Part shown: in pieces, positions 13,985 through 53,288 of the stretch
Numbering within the stretch: position 1 is the first letter of the stretch
Layout: every line of letters starts with the position of its first letter
Assembly: GCA_943789485.1 (NCBI GenBank)
Contig: CALSUH010000002.1
Coordinates: forward strand, 1-64,000
Origin: an uncultured Pseudomonadales bacterium
GTDB lineage: Bacteria; Pseudomonadota; Gammaproteobacteria; Pseudomonadales; Pseudohongiellaceae
Direction of reading: 5' to 3'
Length of the DNA: 64,000 bases
Made by a program: the position numbers and the translations under genes
Notes under the pieces: model-generated
Databases searched by the model: none
Seen by the model: only the letters and a program-made list of their open reading frames with translations
What the model was told of the DNA's origin: nothing

Positions 13985-14204
13985 TTTTGGTGGGGCGGGG
14001 GGCTGACCTTTTCCCCAAACCTCGAGTCAATCTGACTAGATTCCAGGGTGTGTTCGCCCCTAACAGCAAACATCGGGCTTTGATCACTCCCGCAGGCAGG
14101 GGCAAGGGGAGTAAGCAGGCTAGTAAGGATGAGGATGATCGCAGCTTCAGCGAGCGCCACGCAGCGATGACCTGGGCCCAGCTTGAAACGTGTATTACGC
14201 TTCT

Positions 14205-14572
14205 TCTGCAGGAATACATCAACTACTTCACCGTCTTGAGCAACCGCTCTCCATAGATAATATTGCTTACTCTGGATCTTCACAAAGCCTTCATCGATGA
14301 AGATCGTATCACCGTAGCCTTGATGCTTTCGCCTTAACCTGGGAGCAAATTGAGGTCCGAACTTGCTGTACCATAGGCGAATTGCTTCATAGCTCACCTC
14401 AATTCCGCGCTCGGCCATCAAATCTTCAATATCTCGATGACTAAGATTGAATCGGTGGTAGAGCCAAACGGCGTATCGGATGATTTCAGATGGGAGTCGG
14501 TGGCGCTTATATATCGATTTTGATGAGTTAATGGCACAATTATCGCTCAAGGCGAGTTAATTTTTCAGTACC
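14205..14572 (-). pseudogene. Truncated IS6-family-like transposase
   Basis: N-terminal part (RHRLPSEIIRYAVWLYHRFNLSHRDIEDLMAERGIEVSYEAIRLWYSKFGPQFAPRLRRKHQGYGDT) closely matches the intact copy at 46516-47211; similarity is lost after VDVFLQKK. Outer end ggtactgaaaaattaactcgcc (revcomp, ending 14572) resembles the intact copy's terminal repeat. Confidence 0.85.
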
Positions 14573-36020: not shown

Positions 36021-36107
36021 GCGGTAAGTAGGCGGTAAGTAGGGACACTAACAATTTAACAACTTAAGTCTAACCCACAGCATTCGGTTACTGTAATCAA
36101 GAATTCA
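36021..36107. repeat. Family A element, 3'-truncated, with an 11 bp 5' step
   Basis: gcggtaagtag repeated twice, the second continuing as gcggtaagtagggacactaacaatttaacaacttaagtc...gttactgtaatcaagaattcaccc. Confidence 0.8.
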
Positions 36108-36283
36108 CCCTGGACTTCCCAGCCTTTACTAGACCCTGGGCTTCCCACGATTCATAGACAACTTCAAGCCTCTTGGAGCAAGAATTCCTTGTTTGCTCTT
36201 TTAGGGGCAATAAATCACTTGAAAGCACTATTAACTACTACCATAATAGTAATATATCAAATTTTGTAGATATAAATAATACA

Positions 36284-36592
36284 ATGATATTACTTACTAC
36301 GACATCAGAAGCGCAAGAGGCTATCGCTCATAACTTGCAGGAGCAGCGCATTAATATGGGGCTTACTCAGACAGGCCTTGCGAAACGGTCTGGTGTGAGT
36401 GTGGCGACATTGCGCAAGTTTGAACAAAAAGGCCAGATATCCATGAAGTCCTATCTGAAGCTTTTAATTGCGCTCGGGGATTTAGATAAATTCTTAAAAG
36501 CGACAAAGCCTGAACAAAAGAGCTTTAATTCTATTGATGATGTTCTCGCCGACAAAGAACAAATAAAACGTAAGCGAGGCTGGCGCACATGA
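36284..36592 (+). CDS. hipB: HipB-like antitoxin (HTH)
   Basis: LQEQRINMGLTQTGLAKRSGVSVATLRKFEQKGQI HTH; overlaps hipA by 4 nt; ATG 36284 preferred. Confidence 0.85.
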   Translation: MILLTTTSEAQEAIAHNLQEQRINMGLTQTGLAKRSGVSVATLRKFEQKGQISMKSYLKLLIALGDLDKFLKATKPEQKSFNSIDDVLADKEQIKRKRGWRT

Positions 36593-37839
36593 AATTCAAG
36601 CCAGTAGAACAAATAGCAGTTGGCTTAGATTTTGGTCTGGGTTCTGGGAAAAAGGTTATACCGGTTGGTCGTTTGGCAATGCGAGATGGTGTTATTTACT
36701 TTGAATATGACGGCGCTTTTTTAAAGCAAGGGCTTGATTTGTCACCTAGTATCCTTCCCCTGGATCCAGGTGTTAAGTCTTTTGATCGACATCTGTTTAA
36801 AGGGCTACCAGGGGCTTTTAATGATAGTTTGCCTGACGGATGGGGGCGCCTACTTTTTGATCGCGTGCTTAAATCAAATGAGTTGTTGCCAAATGATGCA
36901 TCACCTTTAGATCGACTTGCCTACGTTGGTCATACTGGCATTGGCGCGCTTGTTTATGATCCTGACCAGAGAGATTCTCAGCCGGATACAGAAGTCAGCC
37001 TGGATATGTTAGCCCAAAAAGCAGCAGATGTACTTGAGGGCGATGTAGGAGAAGTTATAGCAGAGTTATTAGCATTAAATGGCTCGTCTGCTGGCGCAAG
37101 ACCAAAGGCAATGATTGCTGTTGACGCTAATCACAAAAATATTATTCATGGAGTTTCCAATGTTCCGTCAACACATCAGCATTGGCTTGTTAAATTCTCT
37201 AATACCGACGACGGTATAGATGCCGGTGCCGTGGAGTATGTGTACTCTATTATGGCAAAAGAAGCAGGCATTGAAATGATGGGTACCCACCTCTTCGAGG
37301 CAGAAAAGGGTGCAGGCTATTTTGCTTGCAAGCGCTTTGACAGGAATACACCTGAAGGCGAAGGGCGTGCGCATGCCCATACTGCATGTGGCATTTTACA
37401 TTCAGACTTTAGAACACCAACTTTAGATTACAAAGATTTGATTTCACTCACGCAAGGACTTACCAAGGATATACGGGAAGCTGAAAAGATGTACCGCCTC
37501 GCAGTATTTAACGTCCTTGCCCATAATCAGGACGACCACTCTAAGAACTTTACTTATCTTATGAATAGTCGTGGCGAGTGGAAGCTATCTCCAGCTTATG
37601 ACCTCACCTTCTCATCAGGGCCTGGCGGTGAACAAAGCGCTACAGTTTGCGGTAGGGGTAAAAATATAAACCTTACTGATTTACAAGAGCTGGCCCAAAA
37701 AACTGGACTGGATAAAGAGTTTGCTACTCAAGTAATTGAAAGAGTCCAAGACGCATTATCAAGTTGGTCTACACTTGCAAAAGAATATAGCATTCATAAC
37801 GATACTGCCGCACTCATACAGAAAAGGCTTGGTGTCTAA
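36589..37839 (+). CDS. hipA: HipA-like serine/threonine kinase toxin
   Basis: 416 aa; GSSAGARPKAMI, catalytic HNQDDHSKNF, SPAYDLTFS. Confidence 0.93.
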   Translation: MKFKPVEQIAVGLDFGLGSGKKVIPVGRLAMRDGVIYFEYDGAFLKQGLDLSPSILPLDPGVKSFDRHLFKGLPGAFNDSLPDGWGRLLFDRVLKSNELLPNDASPLDRLAYVGHTGIGALVYDPDQRDSQPDTEVSLDMLAQKAADVLEGDVGEVIAELLALNGSSAGARPKAMIAVDANHKNIIHGVSNVPSTHQHWLVKFSNTDDGIDAGAVEYVYSIMAKEAGIEMMGTHLFEAEKGAGYFACKRFDRNTPEGEGRAHAHTACGILHSDFRTPTLDYKDLISLTQGLTKDIREAEKMYRLAVFNVLAHNQDDHSKNFTYLMNSRGEWKLSPAYDLTFSSGPGGEQSATVCGRGKNINLTDLQELAQKTGLDKEFATQVIERVQDALSSWSTLAKEYSIHNDTAALIQKRLGV

Positions 37840-38090: not shown

Positions 38091-38176
38091 GGAAAAAATG
38101 GGACAGACCACGGTTCTTTTGAGAAGTCTAAGCCCCGGCAAACCCAATCGTTTAAACGTGGCCTGTCCCCGGTTTT
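38091..38176. repeat. Family B palindromic repeat, copy 1
   Basis: ggaaaaaatgggacagaccacggttcttttgagaagtctaagccccggcaaacccaatcgtttaaacgtggcctgtccccggttttc; near-identical to 44879-44964. Confidence 0.85.
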
Positions 38177-38317
38177 CGTATATTATTCGACCAGGCAGAC
38201 CTTCGCGAGATGATATAGAAAACCCAATATGGCGGGCGCAGCAGAGTCTGCAACTGAGTAATACAAACAGTGAGGAACTATTGGAAGCTGTAGGGGAGTT
38301 GTAGTCTAGTGGTATGG

Positions 38318-38365
38318 AGATATTTATGTTGCAATAGTCCTGCCAAATGGAGATTTCATAACATT
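38318..38365. repeat. 48 bp duplicate of an internal coding segment (42335-42382)
   Basis: agatatttatgttgcaatagtcctgccaaatggagatttcataacatt occurs here and inside the CDS 38415-42608. Confidence 0.9.
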
Positions 38366-38414
38366 AAATTGATTTATAGAATAATTACAAAGTTATTTAT
38401 AAGGAATTAGCAGT

Positions 38415-41400
38415 ATGTCTTTTGCCAAGAGTGGTTTCTATTTCTCAAGTCCATTAATAAAAATTTCCATAAAGTCACTGAAATTTTATGCGTCAGCCCT
38501 GTTATCAGTCCTAGCGCAATCGGCTCTTTGCGTAACTATTGAGGTCAGTGTCGATGAAAACGTTTTAGCTAACGCGACGATCACAGATTATGCTGATACG
38601 AGTCTTAGCTTTGTAACCAATCAAGAGGGAAGAATTCAATATATAGGAGGGGGGAGTTGTGCGAGCCTGAGTTATGTCAGTGAAGACAATGTTATCTATC
38701 GTGCCTTGAGAATTTGTGGACTGAAAGATTCGAATGTGCCGGTATTTAAGATAAACCTTACAAAACTTGTAACGTTGAGTGGAACAGTAGAGGTCCCGCA
38801 GAGTTGCAATTGCGATTTATATTTTGTGAATTTGGATGAGGATACTTCTCTTGGGAGAGGAACCCGCCTGCTCAACTCCACAAAGTTTGAGTTTAATGAG
38901 ACTCTCCCAGCAGGAAGATATCGAATTAAGATTTTGGCGGGCGGCGGGAGTGTCGCTCCAGAAAAATATTATATTGCCTCAGTTGGAGTGGACGCTAGAT
39001 TGCAATCAGTTTCTAATATCAAAATAGCGTCAGTACCTCTGGGCGAAGCCAGTCGATTTGGCGCAAGCCCGCCAAGGGCTGACTTAATCTCGGTCCGTCA
39101 TTCTGATGGCTCTCATCTATCGTTTGTCGAAGGCGCGCCCGGTGCGGCAGAGCCTTTAGTGTCGATCGGCATAGTCAACCTGCAAACTGGCCAGACAGAA
39201 TCTGGCGTATCAGAGGCTGATGGAAGTTTCTCAATAAAATTCTTCGCGCCTTCCGGCTCAGCAATTCAAATAGGTCAGGATCGTCATGCCGACGCTTACA
39301 GTGACTTCACCAGCAATGCGCCATCTACGCTGATTTATGTCCCTCAAATTGACTCTGACTTAGCAATAGCAACGGGACAACGATTGAATGGAAGCAGTCA
39401 GAATGCAATGCGTGGATTGAGATTGAAGGGAGGCAAAGACCCTGGTGTCGCGTGGCTGACTGGTACTTTGGATACTAACGAGTGGCAGCCAGGTCGAGCT
39501 GGCGAGTTATCTGGCACTGTTGATATTTATTCAAGGAATCTTGACTATGGAGTTGTGCCTCAATTAGAAAATGGTGACGCGTATTTGGAGCTGCTTTTTA
39601 ATGAGGATGGTGAGCAGAAAACCTCAGGCCCTGAAAACAGTTCAAGCGACCTCACGATTACTGAATTACCGATTGAAAGGTCTGAGCCTGCATATAAGGA
39701 GAGTATTCGGCTCGGTTACCTTTATTTCTCTGATTACACCTTCGTTGGCGATGGCCATGCACGGGCTTCATGGACTCTAAACTATGAAGTGCCTTCAGAT
39801 ACACCCAATGGTGTCTACCAGCTTGTGCTTAGCGGCAATCTCTGGTCGATGAACCCATGGTTTTCTGGGTTAACTTCTGATCGACTATTTTATGAAGATG
39901 TTTACGGGGAGCCTTCTTTTCATCTCACAAACATTCATGGAGCTGCTCGAATTAACATCGGTCAGACAGAACCGCTTCGGCTTTACGCTGCTATTTTAAT
40001 GAATGAGGTTACGAATGGCTCTCGGGGAACGGTGGCAAAATCTGATAGTAGCAAATTCGGTATAGCAAGCCGTTGGGTCTACAACGCAGAGAAATTAATA
40101 TTGCCCCCTTCAACGAGAGCGGATGGATCGGTCCATAAATACAATATCGAGCCGTTCGTACCACTAACTGCTTATAGTAATAAGGAGTGGCTTAATCCAC
40201 CAAAAATTCCGTTAAGTTTCCCTACGGGACAGCTGATTGCAAACGTACAATCACCAAGCGGTTCTGTAGTCAAAATCGGACCGCACACTATTAAGGGAGG
40301 TTTTGCGCAAAAAGCTACTACGTCAATTGGAGAGGACCTCGCAAGAAACAGCAATGTTCCCGATAGCCACTATGCAGTCACCACCTATTCAGATGAATTT
40401 AATTTGGTTTTAGATGAGTATGGCGAATACAAAATTGAACTCGTCGGGAATGTTAAAGACATTTACGGTGAGGTCTATGAAATTAGCGGCAACTATTCTG
40501 TATATGTGGCAGAGCTATTGGATATTGAGACGGGGGTATTTCCGGGAACACCTTTCGAAGTGGGTGACAGCTTTTCCGCATCATTGATTACTCAGCCTGG
40601 ATTACCGGCCGAAGTATCTATCTCTTTGTCACACTTTCCTAACTCTTCAGTTTCTGAACGGGTTACTGAGACATACTCTGGGGATGCGAATCGATTTGGC
40701 TATTTTGCTTCAAGCGTTACACCATTTAAATTTACGGCTGCAGGAGAGTATCTCGTAAACTATGATGTTAGTTACACCTCTCCAGACGGCGTACTCTGGA
40801 TGGCATCAAGAAAATGGGCATCGATTGTTGAGACGCCTAATTCTAGCATCGTAACACACGGCCACAGAGGTGATGAGGCAGGATTCGAAACAAGGCAGTG
40901 GTATCTTCTCGAAGACTCATCATCTGGCCAAAATGGTCATTTTTTTTCGCCTTATCAAATAGGCGACGTTATGTGGACTAAAAATTTCACCTCTTGGAAT
41001 GCTGCAATGCAAAATATCGTAACGCTGGAGGATGGGGATGGAACACTAACGGCGCTTGTGGGGGTGGGGGACAGAGATTTAGAGGGCCTTGGAATAGGTT
41101 CCATGTACCTTAGATCAACGACTAGTAAGACTTACCGGGGTATCCCTCCTTTTGTAGACCCAACACAACTTGATATTCATTGGGGCTACTATTATTCGAG
41201 CATTGGAAGACCGGGAGTAAGTGTCAGAGAGTTTGTTGGTACAGGAAGCAGTACCAATGGTTACTGGAGATTTAACACCCCTTACGGATATCAGCTTGGT
41301 AATGGCTTCGAAGGGGATCTGCCCAATGATTTTAAATTCATTTTTGGTGGCGCAGTGTACCGGGTTCCCGGCGATAACTTTAGTCATTATGGTGCGTATG

Positions 41401-42608
41401 GTTCACTGTGGGCGATGTTGCCTGAAACAGACACAGACGGGGGACGGGTTATGCCGCCTTTTCAGGGGGCGTCGGGCGGCCCCTCTGGGGGGCCATTATT
41501 TACATTAAACGGAGAAGAAATTGATATATTTCTGCATCCTCAGGGTGTGAGACCTGGCACTATTCTTGAGGAAGGCGATGTGTTCAGTTTTTCAGGTCAA
41601 GTCGGCCCAACCTTGCCTTCCAAAGTCGAGGTACAGATAACGTCACCAGGCGGAGTCGTCCGCACTTTCGATGGGACAGCCAACAAAGTTGGTTATTTCT
41701 ATAATCCAAATAATGATTATGTCGTTACTGAGGCAGGTGTTCATTCGGTTGAGGTCTCAGTAATACATGATGGAGAAACTTCCGCAGGTAGAGTTGAGTC
41801 ACCATATCCCTCGGGCTCAGTACTGGGCGCTTCCAATGGAAAGTTCAATTTCTATGTTGCGACCAAAGGTGCGCAACAAGCCGAAATCGCTAGTGAGCTT
41901 CCGAGTAAATTAAGCGCTAGTGCGAGCTTAGAACTATCATTACAGTCAAGCGATAAATCATCGCCAACCAGTATTCAGCGCACTGTCACGATGCCCGGTT
42001 TTATTCTGTCGCAAAGTGGGTCGAGCGATTCTGCATTTAAGTATGACGCTTATGCGTTAAACGAATCGTTTCCCAATTTAGATTTGCCAGGAGGTGAACT
42101 GCAGCGGCGGAATGGTGCTGATACCGTCACACTTAGTTTTCTTGCACAAAGCGTGGGAGATGATGGGGCCACAATCTTTGAGGGGCGCCAAGTACTTTTG
42201 CAAGGTGAAAAAATATTTGCGCCTTCGCATCAAAAAAAGATAAAAGGCACCTTTGCGGTTAGACTTGAAGACAGTGATCTCCGGCCTGGAAAACGGCTTA
42301 AAGCAACTGTCGATTTAGAGGCTAAAGGTGATGCAGATATTTATGTTGCAATAGTCCTGCCAAATGGAGATTTCATAACATTTAACAAGGATTTGGTGAT
42401 CAGTGGTATTAATCAAATTATTCCCTTTGCCGAATTTTTAGCCTTAGAGGAGCTAGAATCTTTGTCAATCATTGATGTTCCATTAGACGATAGTGTTGCC
42501 TCCGGTGATTATCGCATGGTGGTCATAACTACAGCTGTGGGTAAAAGTATTTACGATCAATCCTATTGGTTGGGATTCGATGAAATTACTTTTAGCTTTG
42601 CTAATTAA
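38415..42608 (+). CDS. Giant secreted protein of unknown function
   Basis: 1397 aa, signal-peptide-like N-terminus, beta-rich; repeated EVGDSFSASLITQPGLPAEVSI / EEGDVFSFSGQVGPTLPSKVEVQI segments. Confidence 0.85.
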   Translation: MSFAKSGFYFSSPLIKISIKSLKFYASALLSVLAQSALCVTIEVSVDENVLANATITDYADTSLSFVTNQEGRIQYIGGGSCASLSYVSEDNVIYRALRICGLKDSNVPVFKINLTKLVTLSGTVEVPQSCNCDLYFVNLDEDTSLGRGTRLLNSTKFEFNETLPAGRYRIKILAGGGSVAPEKYYIASVGVDARLQSVSNIKIASVPLGEASRFGASPPRADLISVRHSDGSHLSFVEGAPGAAEPLVSIGIVNLQTGQTESGVSEADGSFSIKFFAPSGSAIQIGQDRHADAYSDFTSNAPSTLIYVPQIDSDLAIATGQRLNGSSQNAMRGLRLKGGKDPGVAWLTGTLDTNEWQPGRAGELSGTVDIYSRNLDYGVVPQLENGDAYLELLFNEDGEQKTSGPENSSSDLTITELPIERSEPAYKESIRLGYLYFSDYTFVGDGHARASWTLNYEVPSDTPNGVYQLVLSGNLWSMNPWFSGLTSDRLFYEDVYGEPSFHLTNIHGAARINIGQTEPLRLYAAILMNEVTNGSRGTVAKSDSSKFGIASRWVYNAEKLILPPSTRADGSVHKYNIEPFVPLTAYSNKEWLNPPKIPLSFPTGQLIANVQSPSGSVVKIGPHTIKGGFAQKATTSIGEDLARNSNVPDSHYAVTTYSDEFNLVLDEYGEYKIELVGNVKDIYGEVYEISGNYSVYVAELLDIETGVFPGTPFEVGDSFSASLITQPGLPAEVSISLSHFPNSSVSERVTETYSGDANRFGYFASSVTPFKFTAAGEYLVNYDVSYTSPDGVLWMASRKWASIVETPNSSIVTHGHRGDEAGFETRQWYLLEDSSSGQNGHFFSPYQIGDVMWTKNFTSWNAAMQNIVTLEDGDGTLTALVGVGDRDLEGLGIGSMYLRSTTSKTYRGIPPFVDPTQLDIHWGYYYSSIGRPGVSVREFVGTGSSTNGYWRFNTPYGYQLGNGFEGDLPNDFKFIFGGAVYRVPGDNFSHYGAYGSLWAMLPETDTDGGRVMPPFQGASGGPSGGPLFTLNGEEIDIFLHPQGVRPGTILEEGDVFSFSGQVGPTLPSKVEVQITSPGGVVRTFDGTANKVGYFYNPNNDYVVTEAGVHSVEVSVIHDGETSAGRVESPYPSGSVLGASNGKFNFYVATKGAQQAEIASELPSKLSASASLELSLQSSDKSSPTSIQRTVTMPGFILSQSGSSDSAFKYDAYALNESFPNLDLPGGELQRRNGADTVTLSFLAQSVGDDGATIFEGRQVLLQGEKIFAPSHQKKIKGTFAVRLEDSDLRPGKRLKATVDLEAKGDADIYVAIVLPNGDFITFNKDLVISGINQIIPFAEFLALEELESLSIIDVPLDDSVASGDYRMVVITTAVGKSIYDQSYWLGFDEITFSFAN

Positions 42609-42620
42609 TTACTAATCGGA

Positions 42621-44801
42621 ATGTTAGTAAAGATATTTCAGTTAGCTGCTTACTTCGTTTTGACGAATACTGTGCTGGCAGCCGACCGCACATCCTCCAT
42701 TCTTTTGCTTGATGATTCGACTATAGTCGTCGCAAATTCACATTCGCATACCATCTCTTTTGTAGATTTGAACGACCAAGGCAGTGGGAAAATTGAAATC
42801 GATGTTGGGAAGTCACCTCAAACCTTGGCCTACGACAGTGCACTTGATAGGTTATGGGTAGCAAATCAAGCGGAAAATACGCTGACGATAATTTCGGTTT
42901 CAGATAAATCTGTTGAGGGTCAAATCGAAACTGCTCAAAGTCCATTTGGAGTGGTTTTTGATGATTCGGTCGCTTATATAACAAATCAAAAAAGTAATTT
43001 GGTTCAAGTTTTTGATCTAAATAATTTTACTCTAATTGCTTCTATACCAGTGAGTAGTGCACCAAGAGGTATGTCGCTGTCGAAGAACAAGAATACTTTG
43101 TTCGTGACCCATTTTTCTTCAGGGGAAATCTCGGTCATAGACACTGCTCAACTTAGTGTAATAAAAATAATATCTCTTGGTTCAAGAGCAGGCCTGACGC
43201 AGGCTTTTGTTATCGATGAAGGCGAGGCAGTCGCTTATGTGCCAAATACGATGCGAAACTCGGATAATAAGAATCTGATTTTCGATAATACGGTATTTCC
43301 CTTTGTTTCAATCATAGATTTAAATAAATTAAGCCATTTAAGAGAGGAGCGAATAGCGCTCGACATTATCGATAAGCCAGTTGGTCTGCCATTAGAAGCT
43401 GCTCTTCAAAACTCTATCTTGTATGTGGCAAACGCGGCGAGCAATGATTTGACCATCATTGACCTAAAATCAAAAAAATCCTTAGCACATGTGGAGGTTG
43501 GCAGCTTTCCGAGCGGAATTGATATTAGTGAAAGTGGCAGAGAGATATATATTCATAATTCTTTAGATGGAACTATCTCTGTTGTCGATACTGAAGCCTT
43601 TATAGTCAGCTCGGTAATTGAATCCACGGTGATTTCCGCCAGTAGTGCGGTTCTAAATGGGCAAAAACTATTTCATAGTTCTGATGACACGAGAATGTCT
43701 AAGGACCAATGGATAGCCTGCGCAACCTGTCACTTTGGAGGCGAGGCAGATAATGTAAACTGGTTCTTTCCAGGCGGTCTGAGAAATACGCCCTCGCTAA
43801 TCGGCGCCACTGATACAGGTCCTTTTCATTGGTCTGGTAATTTGGATGAAATTCAGGATGTAGAAGATACAATCAGAAAGCTTCAAGGTGGAACTGGTTT
43901 AGTCTTTGGGTCGTCAAATTGTTTGCCCTCATGCGACACTGCAGAAAAAAATGCCGGTAGGTCCTCTGATTTAGACGATATCACCGCCTACCTAGGTTCT
44001 TTAAAGTTTTCAACCGATTATCAAAAAAGCAACGATAAAAAAGAAATCGAATCTATTTCTCGTGGTAGAGAACTTTTTTTCGATAAAAACGTGGGCTGCT
44101 CAGATTGTCATAAGCCGCCATTTTATATGGACAATAAAAATCATATGATGCCTCAGGTTAATTCATCGTCTAAATCGCTGAATACCCCCAGTCTCATGAG
44201 GCTTTCAATATCATCCCCTTACTTACATGATGGTAGCGCTAGAACATTGCCCGAGGTTTTAACCTCAGCACCTTTGAATTCTGTCCATGGTGTGCAGGAA
44301 TCCCTCACTTCACAACAACTTACGGATTTGATTGCATTTACTGAAGCAATTGAACCACCTACCCAGATGGTGGTGGAGCGAGAATATAGCGAGCTGACAG
44401 TTCCCCAAAAGTTTGATTCGTTAGCTGCCAGAGCAAAAGTCGATTTTGAAATAAATCTTGAATACGATGATAACGACATAATTCTTAAAATTGGCTATCG
44501 TCATGGTGCTAATGTTGAGACTGATACTTATCTCGTGGTGGAAGATAATCTATCTGGTAAGTACTGGTTATTGGATGAGTTCTTAAATCTAAATGACATT
44601 AATACATCGAATTATACTCCCACAAGTTCTAATGGCGGGCCTTCCTATTATCAATTATATAGTTTTCCTGAAGTGCGAGTAGCAAATCTGGATGTTGCGG
44701 GACAGATATTTACTTTTCATACTATCACTTTAGAGAAGGGGGCTTCGCCTTATGCTATTGAGAGTTGGTTGTCATACGAAATTGATGAATTGAAGTTTTA
44801 G
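42621..44801 (+). CDS. YncE-like beta-propeller fused to diheme cytochrome c peroxidase/MauG-like domain
   Basis: 726 aa; N-terminal YVTN-type repeats (VDVGKSPQTLAYDS, VEVGSFPSGIDISESG), C-terminal heme motifs CATCH and CSDCH. Confidence 0.88.
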   Translation: MLVKIFQLAAYFVLTNTVLAADRTSSILLLDDSTIVVANSHSHTISFVDLNDQGSGKIEIDVGKSPQTLAYDSALDRLWVANQAENTLTIISVSDKSVEGQIETAQSPFGVVFDDSVAYITNQKSNLVQVFDLNNFTLIASIPVSSAPRGMSLSKNKNTLFVTHFSSGEISVIDTAQLSVIKIISLGSRAGLTQAFVIDEGEAVAYVPNTMRNSDNKNLIFDNTVFPFVSIIDLNKLSHLREERIALDIIDKPVGLPLEAALQNSILYVANAASNDLTIIDLKSKKSLAHVEVGSFPSGIDISESGREIYIHNSLDGTISVVDTEAFIVSSVIESTVISASSAVLNGQKLFHSSDDTRMSKDQWIACATCHFGGEADNVNWFFPGGLRNTPSLIGATDTGPFHWSGNLDEIQDVEDTIRKLQGGTGLVFGSSNCLPSCDTAEKNAGRSSDLDDITAYLGSLKFSTDYQKSNDKKEIESISRGRELFFDKNVGCSDCHKPPFYMDNKNHMMPQVNSSSKSLNTPSLMRLSISSPYLHDGSARTLPEVLTSAPLNSVHGVQESLTSQQLTDLIAFTEAIEPPTQMVVEREYSELTVPQKFDSLAARAKVDFEINLEYDDNDIILKIGYRHGANVETDTYLVVEDNLSGKYWLLDEFLNLNDINTSNYTPTSSNGGPSYYQLYSFPEVRVANLDVAGQIFTFHTITLEKGASPYAIESWLSYEIDELKF

Positions 44802-44878
44802 CGGATTTAATTAAAATACAAAACTCTGATAACAAGGGGTAAATATTTTTGGCCTATTACCGAGATTAACATACCGCG

Positions 44879-44964
44879 GAAAAACAGGGACAGACCACGG
44901 TTCTTTTGAGAAGTCTAAGCCCGGGGAAACCCAATCGTTTAAACGTGGTCTGTCCCCGGTTTTC
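44879..44964. repeat. Family B palindromic repeat, copy 2
   Basis: ggaaaaacagggacagaccacggttcttttgagaagtctaagcccggggaaacccaatcgtttaaacgtggtctgtccccggttttc. Confidence 0.85.
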
Positions 44965-46474: not shown

Positions 46475-47263
46475 GGTACTGACAAGTTAAGCGCCAATCT
46501 GTCAGGATCTATCTCATGACTCAACCAAAAATGTACCAACGACACAGATTCCCACCTGAAATCATACAATATGCCGTGTGGCTGTACCATCGATTCAATC
46601 TAAGTCATCGTGACATCGAAGATTTGATGGCCGAGCGGGGCGTCACCGTCAGCTATGAAGCGATTCGACTTTGGTGCAATAAGTTCGGCCCTCAATTTGC
46701 GCGTAGGTTACGACGAAAGCACCAAGGCTACGGCGACACCTTCTTCATCGATGAAGTCTTTGTGAAGATCCAAGGTAAGCAGCATTATCTGTGGAGAGCA
46801 GTGGACCAGGACGGAGAAGTGGTTGATGTATTCCTACAGAAACGACGTGATGGAAAGGCCGCGAAACGCTTCTTTAAGCGACTATTGAAGAATCACAAGG
46901 GAGAGCCGAGGAAGATTGTCACTGACAAATTGAGAAGCTATAACGTGGCGCACAGGGAACTGATTCCTGAAACGATTCACGATACAACCCAGTATGCCAA
47001 TAATCGAGCTGAGCTATCGCACGAATCGACGAGAGTCAGAGAGCGGGGCATGCGTAAGTTTAAATCAATGCGGCAAGCACAGCGGTTTTTGAGTGCGCAT
47101 GCAGCGGTGTACAATTTGTTCAATCTTGGGCGGCATTTAGTGTCAGCTGAGAACTATCGTTTCTTTAGACGGCGAGCCTTCGCGTCTTGGGAAAAGGCAG
47201 CGGGAATATAGAAGCTGCTACGTACTAGATTTTCAGAGCGGGAATAGTTAATTTGTCAGTACC
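46475..47263 (+). mobile_element. IS6-family-like insertion sequence
   Basis: Terminal inverted repeats ggtactgacaagttaa (46475-46490) and ttaatttgtcagtacc (47248-47263) bracket the transposase; flanking 8-mers (aattagac / cacccccg) do not match. Confidence 0.88.
46516..47211 (+). CDS. IS6-family-like DDE transposase
   Basis: 231 aa; RHRFPPEIIQYAVWLYHRFNLSHRDIEDLMAERGV; FIDEVFVKI, VTDKLRSY DDE segments. Confidence 0.93.
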   Translation: MTQPKMYQRHRFPPEIIQYAVWLYHRFNLSHRDIEDLMAERGVTVSYEAIRLWCNKFGPQFARRLRRKHQGYGDTFFIDEVFVKIQGKQHYLWRAVDQDGEVVDVFLQKRRDGKAAKRFFKRLLKNHKGEPRKIVTDKLRSYNVAHRELIPETIHDTTQYANNRAELSHESTRVRERGMRKFKSMRQAQRFLSAHAAVYNLFNLGRHLVSAENYRFFRRRAFASWEKAAGI

Positions 47264-49682: not shown

Positions 49683-49809
49683 GCTTTTGAAAGCTGAATA
49701 GAGCGTCGATAGCGCAGTATAGATTGAGCTTTGAGGGCGTTGTTATGGAACTCGGTAATGAAGATGTAATGTTGCTAGTAGGAGGCCGGATTCGGTGTCG
49801 TCGTTGCAG
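49683..49809. repeat. About 127 bp repeat, copy 1 (second copy 50036-50161)
   Basis: cttttgaaagctgaatagagcg...ggccggattcggtgtcgtcgttgcag; near-identical to 50036-50161. Confidence 0.85.
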
Positions 49810-49844
49810 TGCCCGTAGTAAGCGCATAGGTTGACTTGTCCTCA

Positions 49845-50024
49845 TCACTTTGCAGTCTTCCTCCCTACCATACCCCCGCTAATCAGCCCAAGCTCTCTAC
49901 CCAGCATCTCAAGTTCATAAAGCTCCGCCAACTTAGCGCTGCGCTCTTCGCGTATAGCTCGCGTTTCATCGCCGTGCTTGGTGTTAGCTGCTATCTGACG
50001 GGCTTTGCTTTGGGTTTTCGGTCA
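49845..50024 (-). pseudogene. HGGxSTG-domain-like protein C-terminal remnant
   Basis: Minus strand RQIAANTKHGDETRAIREERSAKLAELYELEMLGRELGLISGGMVGRKTAK-stop, no start. Confidence 0.55.
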
Positions 50025-50035
50025 ACGCTTTAATA

Positions 50036-50161
50036 CTTTTGGAAGCTGAATAGGGCACCGATAGCGTAATATATATTGAGCTTTGAGGGCGTTGTTATGG
50101 AACTCGGTAATGAAGATGTAATGTTGCTAGCAGGAGGCCGGATTCGGTGTCGTCGTTGCAG
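50036..50161. repeat. About 127 bp repeat, copy 2, abutting a family A element
   Basis: cttttggaagctgaatagggc...gattcggtgtcgtcgttgcag followed directly by cggagtaagtaggg. Confidence 0.85.
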
Positions 50162-50400
50162 CGGAGTAAGTAGGGACACTAACAATTTAACAACTTAAGT
50201 CTAACTCATAGCATTCGGTTACTGTAATCAAGAAGCCACCTCGATCTGTTAAGTAGTTATCTTGTTAGTATTCCCTTGAGGTATTGCAGCTCGAAATCCT
50301 CAGAAACAGTCATAAAAAACCCAGCACAAGTGCTGGGTTTTTTATTTGGTGGAGGCGGGGAGGATTTGCGACCCACATCCCTGTGGGTCGTCCTGCGGAC
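50162..50400. repeat. 239 bp direct repeat, left copy (family A element + terminator + tmRNA 3'-end-like segment)
   Basis: cggagtaagtaggg...tgtgggtcgtcctgcggac; appears identical to 51966-52204 on line-by-line reading (offset 1804). Confidence 0.95.
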
Positions 50401-50471
50401 TGGACTTCCCAATGTTTACTGGACAACAATCAGCACTGAACAGACTTATTCTAGCGACAACGTATCAACAC

Positions 50472-51491
50472 TTAATACCCGTCAGATTTGTCCAGCCATT
50501 CATGGATAAGTTGGCGTAACTCGGCGGAGATTTGGGTCTTCCAAGTTTCAACTGTTTTAAGTGGTGTAACGCCATAGTCGTCTTCTATTCGTACATTTGC
50601 ACCGTGATCTAGCAAGAAAACACTCATTGTGTAATGGCCCTCCCATACCGCAAGTAATAGCGGGGTTCGTCCTCGATAATCAGTGTACTCAATGTTTGCC
50701 CCGCCATTGATTAAAGCTACCACTAGCTCCAGGTTCCCACCGTTTGCTGCCTTTAATAACGCCTGGTCATGCTCCTCATTAGAGTGAAAGGTAGCAGCCA
50801 TCAAGTATTTGACGACTTCAGCATGTCCCTCTCTGCCGGCGAGATCGATTGGAAGTTGGCTTGTACGGTCCGGCTTTCGAGCAGATGCGCCGTGCCCGAT
50901 CAGTAGTGCGACAAATTCAGCTTGCCCAAAATAGGCGGCTAAATGGAGCGCCGTCCAACCCATCGCATCTGGCTCGTCAATACTCTCAGTGGCGGGGTCA
51001 TAATTATCAATCGCCTTCCGCTCACCTTGCCGGACAGATTCATGCAACTCGGTTTCAGCAATTGGATACACACTGTCAAACCCACGAGAATCGAGCGTGT
51101 GCTTGTGCCACCTCATATAATGTTCGTTACTGCAGAATTCAACTTGGAGATTAGGCTTTTTCAAATTGATTATCAGTCCTCTACTAGCACTATCACCGCA
51201 GATTTCGCATTGATTGATCCCTTGCCTGGGCTTCGGAGCAAGCCTTCCAAGCCAGGGTATACGGACATATCCTCCTGAATATAGGCCTCTTGTGCTGATC
51301 GGGACATGGATGTCAGGCTCAGCGCGCGTAATGTTAGCGCAATAGGTCCACGCTCGGTCCCAGATCGGGATCTTATGGACTGAGCAAAAAGGTAATCGCG
51401 TGGAGGGTAACGCTGTTTTCACATTCGTCGATGTTTGATTTGCCCGGTTGTGCCGACAATTCATACAATTATCAGTGCCGCCATTTGGCAT
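50472..51491 (-). CDS. Ankyrin-repeat protein with N-terminal Cys/His-rich region
   Basis: 339 aa; ankyrin repeats GWTALHLAAYFGQAEFVALLIGHGASA, GRTPLLLAVWEGHYTMSVFLLDHGANV; N-terminal CMNCRHN, CSVHK, CEICGDSA. Confidence 0.9.
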   Translation of the reverse strand: MPNGGTDNCMNCRHNRANQTSTNVKTALPSTRLPFCSVHKIPIWDRAWTYCANITRAEPDIHVPISTRGLYSGGYVRIPWLGRLAPKPRQGINQCEICGDSASRGLIINLKKPNLQVEFCSNEHYMRWHKHTLDSRGFDSVYPIAETELHESVRQGERKAIDNYDPATESIDEPDAMGWTALHLAAYFGQAEFVALLIGHGASARKPDRTSQLPIDLAGREGHAEVVKYLMAATFHSNEEHDQALLKAANGGNLELVVALINGGANIEYTDYRGRTPLLLAVWEGHYTMSVFLLDHGANVRIEDDYGVTPLKTVETWKTQISAELRQLIHEWLDKSDGY

Positions 51492-51568
51492 ATTTCTGCC
51501 CTCTCATTTGTAAGAAGTGTTTAAAAAGCGCTGAGAAGCCTAGGTTATGGAAGTCAATTAAATTAGGT

Positions 51569-51823
51569 TCATTTTGATATTATTCTTTGATGCCAAGCTG
51601 ACTCTACAGCACGACAAAGTTTGCAATACACTACTTTGCGTGTTTTCGGAAAATCTTCACTATATCTACTACCACCGGGCAACTGATGGCATGAATTAGG
51701 AAACAATGTTGTCAGAGCCTCTATGTATTCAGAAGATCTGGATGGCAGCCAAATTCCATACATGATTTCTGCTTCACCTGAGTAGAGCTGGCAACGATGG
51801 ATTATGCAGTATCTTTCGTTCAA
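51569..51823 (-). CDS. Small Cys/His-rich hypothetical protein
   Basis: 84 aa; YCIIHRCQLYSG and CKLCRAV motifs; same strand as the ankyrin gene. Confidence 0.5.
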   Translation of the reverse strand: MNERYCIIHRCQLYSGEAEIMYGIWLPSRSSEYIEALTTLFPNSCHQLPGGSRYSEDFPKTRKVVYCKLCRAVESAWHQRIISK

Positions 51824-51965
51824 GCTTTATCTCTTTTAGTCACGGGATCATAGGGACACTAACAATTTAACAACTTAGTGCTGTTCAAGCATAGTGCCCC
51901 TTTATGCGCCATGGGCTCATTGTCATTTACGTTGCCGAAGAACCGTACACGGGATCATAGGGACA

Positions 51966-52204
51966 CGGAGTAAGTAGGGACACTAACAATTTAACAACTT
52001 AAGTCTAACTCATAGCATTCGGTTACTGTAATCAAGAAGCCACCTCGATCTGTTAAGTAGTTATCTTGTTAGTATTCCCTTGAGGTATTGCAGCTCGAAA
52101 TCCTCAGAAACAGTCATAAAAAACCCAGCACAAGTGCTGGGTTTTTTATTTGGTGGAGGCGGGGAGGATTTGCGACCCACATCCCTGTGGGTCGTCCTGC
52201 GGAC
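51966..52204. repeat. 239 bp direct repeat, right copy
   Basis: See 50162-50400. Confidence 0.95.
52118..52147. terminator. Rho-independent terminator-like hairpin (also at 50314-50343)
   Basis: aaaaaacccagcacaagtgctgggtttttt. Confidence 0.85.
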
Positions 52205-52284
52205 CGCCTTGCAGGCGTCCAAAATTGCTCCAGGCAATTTTGTGAACCCGACAGTAACAGTTCACTTCCCTATCTTCGCTAGAT

Positions 52285-52326
52285 AAAAGAAAGGCCCACT
52301 ACCTTGCGGTAGTAGGCCTTTCTTTT
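52285..52326 (-). terminator. tmRNA terminator
   Basis: aaaagaaaggcccactaccttgcggtagtaggcctttctttt immediately downstream of the ssrA 3' end. Confidence 0.85.
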
Positions 52327-52329
52327 ATT

Positions 52330-52689
52330 TGGTGGAGGCGGGGGGATTTGAACCCCCGTCCGTCAGCTCTCTTCCTTCGGGTCTACATGCATAGCGTCGT
52401 CTATTGAGTTAACCCGCATCCGCCCGACGGGCAGGGTGATTTGGGCGAGCTTGATACTATTTAGCCGCTTCACGTCAAGCGCGTTCCACTGGCGATTCCG
52501 TTCTAGATGACGATTGCGATCACAAGTTTACGGACATCCCTGTGGCAATCGCTAGCAAGCTCTTAGGCTGCTAGGGCGTAGCTTTCGTCGTTGGCAACTA
52601 TAAAGTTGCAGCGATTGATTTACGAGAGTCACTACCCTCTCGGCATGCACCTTGGGCTTCAATACCGGCGTCGAATCCTAATCGCCCCC
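52330..52689 (-). ncRNA. ssrA: tmRNA (SsrA)
   Basis: Minus strand 5' GGGGGCGATTAGGATTCGACG ... tag frame GCCAACGACGAAAGCTACGCCCTAGCAGCCTAA (ANDESYALAA) ... GGTTCAAATCCCCCCGCCTCCACCA 3'; acceptor ends pair. Confidence 0.97.
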
Positions 52690-52793: not shown

Positions 52794-53288
52794 TTAGCGG
52801 TGCGCGTGGCGCACGATGCGTTGTTTATCCACTGCCCATTCTTTGTCTTTCTGTGCTGCCCGCTTGTCATGGTCTTGCTTACCCTTTGCCAGAGCGATCT
52901 GTATTTTTACCAAGTGGCCCTTCCAATACAGCTTGGTGGCGACACAGGTATGGCCCTTCTGCTGAACGGCGGCAAATAGCTTGGCCAACTCTCTGGCGTT
53001 CAATAGCAATTTCTTGGTTCTGTCTGGGTCGGCGATGACATGGGTGTTGGCGGTATTAAGCGGTGTGACATGGCAGCCTAACAGGAATGCTTCGCCGTCT
53101 TTTAGCAGCACATAGCTGTCCACCAGCTGCACTTTCTTCATGCGCAGGGATTTAACTTCCCAGCCCTGCAGCATAACGCCAGCTTCGTAGGTGTCCTCGA
53201 TATAGTAATCGTGGCGCGCCCTTTTATTGGCAACGATAGTGGTGTCGGTAGTCTTGTTTTTGACTCTTGTTGTCTTGGATTTTGCCAT
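52794..53288 (-). CDS. smpB: SsrA-binding protein SmpB
   Basis: 164 aa; [43 protein letters not shown]-terminal tail. Confidence 0.97.

Follow-up and report, generated by a model that had tools for sequence, protein, structure and literature searches.

Perfect 239-bp direct repeats around an ankyrin-repeat gene beside ssrA: a probable segmental duplication in the tmRNA flank

The locus downstream of ssrA

The window analysed here is the whole 64-kb stretch of DNA. In it the tmRNA gene ssrA and smpB, which is the next gene in the plus-strand direction, are both encoded on the minus strand. According to its SmpB matches, the organism falls among Pseudohongiella/OM182-like Gammaproteobacteria. 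Downstream of ssrA, two copies of a direct repeat enclose an ankyrin-repeat gene and a small Cys/His gene. The locus has the following features:

49684-49809, plus strand: 126-bp repeat family, left copy; direct repeat of 50036-50161
50036-50161, plus strand: 126-bp repeat family, right copy (94%); abuts copy A, which cuts it
50162-50400, plus strand: direct repeat copy A (239 bp), matching copy B at every position; made up of palindromic repeat, spacer, terminator, tmRNA-3'-like segment and a piece of the native palindromic array
50167-50278, plus strand: family A palindromic repeat in copy A, REPIN/MITE-like, ~112 bp with 26-bp TIR (nhmmer E 8.6e-36)
50312-50345, minus strand: terminator hairpin T2 in copy A, intrinsic, in tmRNA-strand sense (fold -14.9 kcal/mol, z -5.8)
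50345-50368, minus strand: tmRNA-3'-end-like (att-like) segment CAAATCCTCCCCGCCTCCACCAAA in copy A
50401-50430, plus strand: solo IS3-like terminal inverted repeat TGGACTTCCCAATGTTTACTGGACA, resembling both ends of complete IS copies
50472-51491, minus strand: ankyrin-repeat protein, 339 aa, Cys-rich N-terminal part (Pfam Ank_2 E 1.5e-23)
51569-51823, minus strand: small Cys/His ORF, 84 aa, TTG start (ORF list)
51851-51877, plus strand: family A fragment (one TIR), 27 nt
51966-52204, plus strand: direct repeat copy B, 239 bp; its right side runs into the native ssrA flank
51971-52082, plus strand: family A palindromic repeat in copy B, with three private variants in common with copy A
52116-52149, minus strand: terminator hairpin T2 in copy B, identical to that of copy A
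52149-52172, minus strand: tmRNA-3'-end-like (att-like) segment in copy B, where the native palindromic array ends
52173-52256, no strand: palindromic array of the native ssrA flank; homologous arrays follow ssrA in G031, G012, G064 and G074
52283-52323, minus strand: native ssrA terminator T1 (sequence; inverted repeat I2)
52330-52689, minus strand: ssrA (tmRNA), tag ANDESYALAA (ARAGORN; Rfam RF00023 E 6.9e-79)
52794-53288, minus strand: smpB (SmpB E 4e-54)

This inventory bears out the first-pass annotation, which had described perfect repeats beside the tmRNA gene, each with a family A element, a terminator and a tmRNA-3'-like segment, around an ankyrin gene and a small Cys/His gene; as it had also stated, the ORF list holds no integrase within the 1.8-kb unit. 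The piece of native array in the repeat, the IS3-like end at 50401 and the family A fragment at 51851-51877 are additions to that annotation.

The 1.57-kb interior with the ankyrin and Cys/His genes is accessory DNA. As in genomic islands at ssrA, its content is absent from relatives at the site: among 58 relatives, the interior has no DNA match beyond repeat and terminator fragments, and the ankyrin protein finds generic ankyrin matches only, with no close homologue. No close relative of this protein is encoded in GTDB species genomes or in viral contigs. Named ankyrin proteins match the ORF weakly, through the ankyrin repeats only and far under the cut-offs. The small Cys/His ORF has no match in Pfam, NCBIfam or PADLOC.

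Identity and edges of the direct repeat

Copies A and B are 100% identical over 239 bp with a start-to-start spacing of 1804, and the identity stops dead at both ends, without a further matching base on either flank. A repeat of this length and perfection is far beyond chance. Going away from ssrA, each copy consists of part of the palindromic array, the tmRNA-3'-end-like segment, a strong terminator, a short spacer and family A. Copy B continues into the ssrA flank, which is homologous to the native flank of the relatives G031 and G012; copy A holds just 32 bp of the array and is then followed by position 50401.

Both edges of the identity coincide with the edge of another element. At the outer end, the identity stops where family A also ends in its other genomic copies. 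On the ankyrin side, copy A directly abuts the IS3-like terminal inverted repeat at 50401, which reads TGGACTTCCCA; complete IS copies with similar ends are found at G000:C11:259696-260928 and on G000:C4. An IS-based composite or a mobile insertion cassette does not describe the unit, around which there is one IS3-like end only (50401). Another solo IS3-like inverted repeat, at 36111, adjoins a truncated family A copy (36036-36115), similar to the situation at 50401, and a HipB/HipA-like gene pair at 36173-37839, judged from the ORF sequences only, also adjoins a truncated family A copy. Outside copy A, the two 126-bp repeats (49684-50161) are separated by a 226-bp segment. The contig G019:C50 has a single-copy counterpart of this repeat, and the alignment reaches 50161.

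Could the perfect repeat have arisen in the computer, by fusion of strain variants into one contig? The genome is in 32 contigs and 84% complete, and the ends of its contigs C12 and C7 overlap at 99.9% with differing middles, as such an artefact would have it. However, the ankyrin-side junction (50400/50401) lies outside any repeat, and the four flanks of the two copies are all mutually different, so that the DNA must contain two or more kinds of junction. An assembly artefact is thus extremely unlikely.

Family A and its transposase

Family A (fold z -2.4) is present genome-wide in many full or partial copies. Its 26-bp TIRs (GGGACACTAACAAYTTAACAACTTAA) bracket a 340-aa Y1_Tnp (PF01797) protein at G000:C5:307099-308196, with one TIR at C5:307099 and the other at 308171-308196. 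Because its TIRs flank a Y1_Tnp protein, family A is read as the putative non-autonomous repeat of a RAYT-like transposase. It has what characterizes RAYT/TIRYT repeats, namely a Y1 gene between the same inverted ends and multiple hairpin-capable non-autonomous copies, and its long TIRs fit the TIRtrons as named in PMC3733652. In the described TIRtrons/TIRYT and RAYT-REP/REPIN systems (PMC3733652, PMC2817692, PMC3116915), the Y1 (PF01797) gene likewise lies between inverted repeat copies, and non-autonomous palindromic copies likewise occur, frequently close to the 3' ends of genes. Family A differs from the 20-40-bp REPs of the RAYT-REP/REPIN systems by its 26-bp TIRs and ~112-bp copies, and from both TIRtrons and RAYT-REPs in that the copy at this locus is part of a bigger duplicated segment.

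An integron gene cassette or array was rejected, on the sequence of the repeats, as their identity. The attC core GTTRRRY is absent from the repeat end, the family A ends being GTTAGTG or GTTAGTA, and the family A TIRs belong to the Y1 transposase element. Some family A copies on contig C11 (L087:6101-6180) hold tandem AACTTAAC expansions of the TIR.

ssrA as an integration site

On the sequence evidence, ssrA is a live integration hotspot in this genus. P4-type tyrosine integrases, found as relatives of two integrases, are encoded directly downstream of ssrA in about ten relatives, and distal copies of the ssrA 3' end lie 8-14 kb away in G012, G024 and G006. The view that tmRNA genes are integration sites of islands therefore holds for the genus. 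The Dehalococcoides vcr island (PMC3146451) and the islands of Islander (PMC4383910) likewise lie downstream of ssrA and hold strain-specific genes between copies of its 3' end. In contrast to these islands, the ankyrin unit has no integration module, and its repeat is far longer than their ~20-bp ssrA direct repeat and includes native flank.

A third copy of the tmRNA-3'-end-like segment (TTTTATTTGGTGGAGGCGGGG) is located at the true tmRNA end (52323-52343), and hairpin T2 resembles the ssrA terminators of G012 and G064. The palindromic array at 52173-52256 (fold z -4.7), of which only the first 32 bp recur in copy A, provides the reference for the native flank. In G031, G012 (distal copy) and G064, an ssrA-type terminator is followed by ~50 bp of TCGGGTTCA or similar, by the palindromic array and by the tail CCCCGC, past which the sequences diverge. 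In the window, the array runs straight into CTCCACCAAATAAAAAACCC and a terminator, and its tail thus equals a completed ssrA 3' end with a terminator like those of G012 and G064. This comparison of tails across a few relatives makes the tmRNA-3'-like segment look like an old attachment-site scar at a secondary site. The array itself sits between TCGGGTTCA and CAAATCCTCCCCGC, a layout shared by G031, G012, G064 and G074, and looks like an insertion in the T-loop of a second, degenerate tmRNA T-arm.

With a tmRNA-3'-like segment in both copies, and many relatives that encode P4-type integrases at ssrA, the unit might be regarded as a non-autonomous integrative element that a tyrosine integrase specific for ssrA mobilizes in trans and that is delimited by these segments as attL and attR. 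The first-pass annotation had offered, beside excision by homologous recombination, a cassette that duplicated its attachment region. The cassette proposal is not supported. Although both unit ends hold the segment, it lies within an identity of 239 bp, which far exceeds an att core and also takes in native array as well as a RAYT-linked repeat that carries private variants. Nor does the identity stop at att borders: it runs from the edge of a palindromic repeat to an IS end. Moreover, the two P4-type integrases, used as queries, have no relative anywhere in the 64-kb window, and the junction between T2 and the att-like segment is unmatched in viral contigs (IMG/VR). In the phage collection, nothing matched apart from the tmRNA gene and its 3' end. 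Mobilization in trans is therefore very unlikely, and site-specific mobility of the ankyrin unit is not supported, because neither an enzyme of its own nor att-bounded ends were found.

Origin of the repeat

The two family A copies of the unit have three variants that are missing from the 12 other full copies. These shared private variants, together with the native flank within the repeat, mean that copies A and B stem from one segmental duplication and not from two integrations. We favor, with a probability of roughly 0.6, that a composite scar downstream of ssrA, in the flank that serves the genus as an integration hotspot, underwent this segmental duplication and so gave rise to the 239-bp repeats.

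Three steps would lead to the present structure. First, an earlier ssrA-type integration would have taken place at the tail of the native palindromic array, whose end ...TCCCCGC resembles the ssrA att core, leaving the hybrid CAAATCCTCCCCGC|CTCCACCA-AATAAAA-terminator. Second, family A, the RAYT-linked origin of which is documented by its transposase element, would have inserted beside this hybrid. Third, the composite scar and ~30 bp of native array would have been duplicated, with 1.57 kb of other DNA between the copies. One edge of the duplication being a palindromic-repeat edge and the other an IS3-like end, recombination associated with repeats or with IS elements is a probable mechanism for this last step. 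The ankyrin unit would then be accessory DNA trapped between the copies, without a recombination enzyme of its own.

Such edges fit the known behavior of REP sequences and IS elements in duplications. REP sequences have been found where tandem duplications join (Shyamala et al. 1990, as cited in PMC11708052 and PMC7661048), and IS elements target REP sequences (PMC11708052). As far as these citations and the IS/REP clusters of PMC11708052 describe them, REP-associated duplications likewise have a palindromic repeat and an IS end at their edges. Compared with them, the ankyrin duplication is small (1.8 kb), has other DNA between its copies, and is known from sequence alone.

Alternatively, incoming DNA from another strain, circular or linear and carrying one 239-bp copy with the ankyrin genes, could have recombined homologously into a resident single copy. 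This would yield precisely the order copy-insert-copy at perfect identity. It would also agree with an interior that is missing from relatives and with the variation of blocks at other palindromic-repeat sites of the genome among close relatives. However, the donor would have to carry that composite scar beside another neighbor, and no such donor was found in the genomes searched; we consider this route unlikely. Among the genomes searched, none had the same cassette, the pre-duplication state or an empty ssrA site. The closest comparator, G008, is 94-99% identical at other loci, and its ssrA region is not in the assembly.

Once the segmental duplication was in place, the unit could be lost, and in principle transferred, through RecA-dependent recombination between the 239-bp repeats. 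Homologous loss between perfect repeats of 239 bp is generally expected to be possible, and the 1804-bp unit may plausibly be lost in this RecA-dependent way.

For the most part, the structure reflects the usual wear of a genome at a known hotspot. It combines known kinds of elements and events, namely ssrA hotspot scars, RAYT-linked repeats, IS ends and repeat-associated duplication. What the locus documents is how scars of the tmRNA flank, RAYT-linked repeats and IS ends accumulate and become duplicated at an integration hotspot.

Repeat-bounded blocks elsewhere in the genome

At other sites of the genome too, several blocks that relatives share stop at repeats of this type. A 6.7-kb block of the window (38179-44875) shares 93% identity with G015:C2, and two D6 repeats lie within 2-3 bp of its ends. 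These are RAYT-linked direct repeats of 87 bp (GGGACAGACCACG...CGTGGTCTGTCCCC) at 38091 and 44878 (region 38091-44964). G015 is without the D6 repeats, and the left start of the block in the window falls mid-gene relative to G015. The 87-bp repeats constitute, with a Y1 protein (C10:72239-72565) that has the same ends in its flanks, a second pair of repeat and transposase in the genome. For family A, the blocks C11:257738-259600 and 260987-261743 and the site C12:24704-25207 differ from G008, between flanks that are 94-99% identical in that genome. The breaks lie 2-6 bp from family A edges. A breakpoint statistic on them is post hoc, as the spans were chosen around repeats and the clean presence or absence of a repeat yields the same ends, and it does not serve as a probability.

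As a lead, blocks that end at RAYT-linked repeats suggest repeat-bounded gene exchange, probably homologous, which is a process of known kind. A more direct role of the transposase is conceivable, in which a RAYT-type enzyme moves the DNA between two direct repeat copies, and the ankyrin unit and the other blocks are composite elements. The close coincidence of block ends and repeats, both against G015 (38179-44875) and against G008 (C11, C12), and the presence of cognate transposases for both repeat families are in line with this idea. However, homologous recombination between repeats predicts identical boundaries and suits the block pattern at least as well as transposase action. Furthermore, C11:259696-260928 and C12:2780 proved to be IS3-type insertions, and the 239-bp identity at ssrA reaches well beyond the palindromic repeat. 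Transposition of such composites is thus highly doubtful.

A wider generalization for this Pseudohongiella/OM182-like lineage would be that the long RAYT/TIRYT palindromic repeats are exchange boundaries throughout the genome, between which segments are swapped between strains in a cassette-like manner, be it by the transposase or by host recombination, the ankyrin unit being a recent example with ends that are still identical. We regard this as quite unlikely at present. If true genome-wide, repeat-bounded block exchange would make REP-like repeats routes of gene turnover, and not merely passive repeats.

Two candidates for cassettes between repeats were rejected. The segment C11:259696-260928 is not an independent cassette but an IS3-family element that inserted into a single palindromic repeat. 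Cassette swapping was also dismissed for the difference between C12 and C7, which includes a truncated IS3-type element. These two contigs (L088:1-4087, L094:1-4074) have ends that are 99.9% alike around a differing middle of ~950 bp, which reflects either strain variation or an unresolved repeat. Within the window, an ORF for an IS6/IS240-type transposase (46516-47211, DDE_Tnp_IS240) has an 82% inverted match to 14204-14514.
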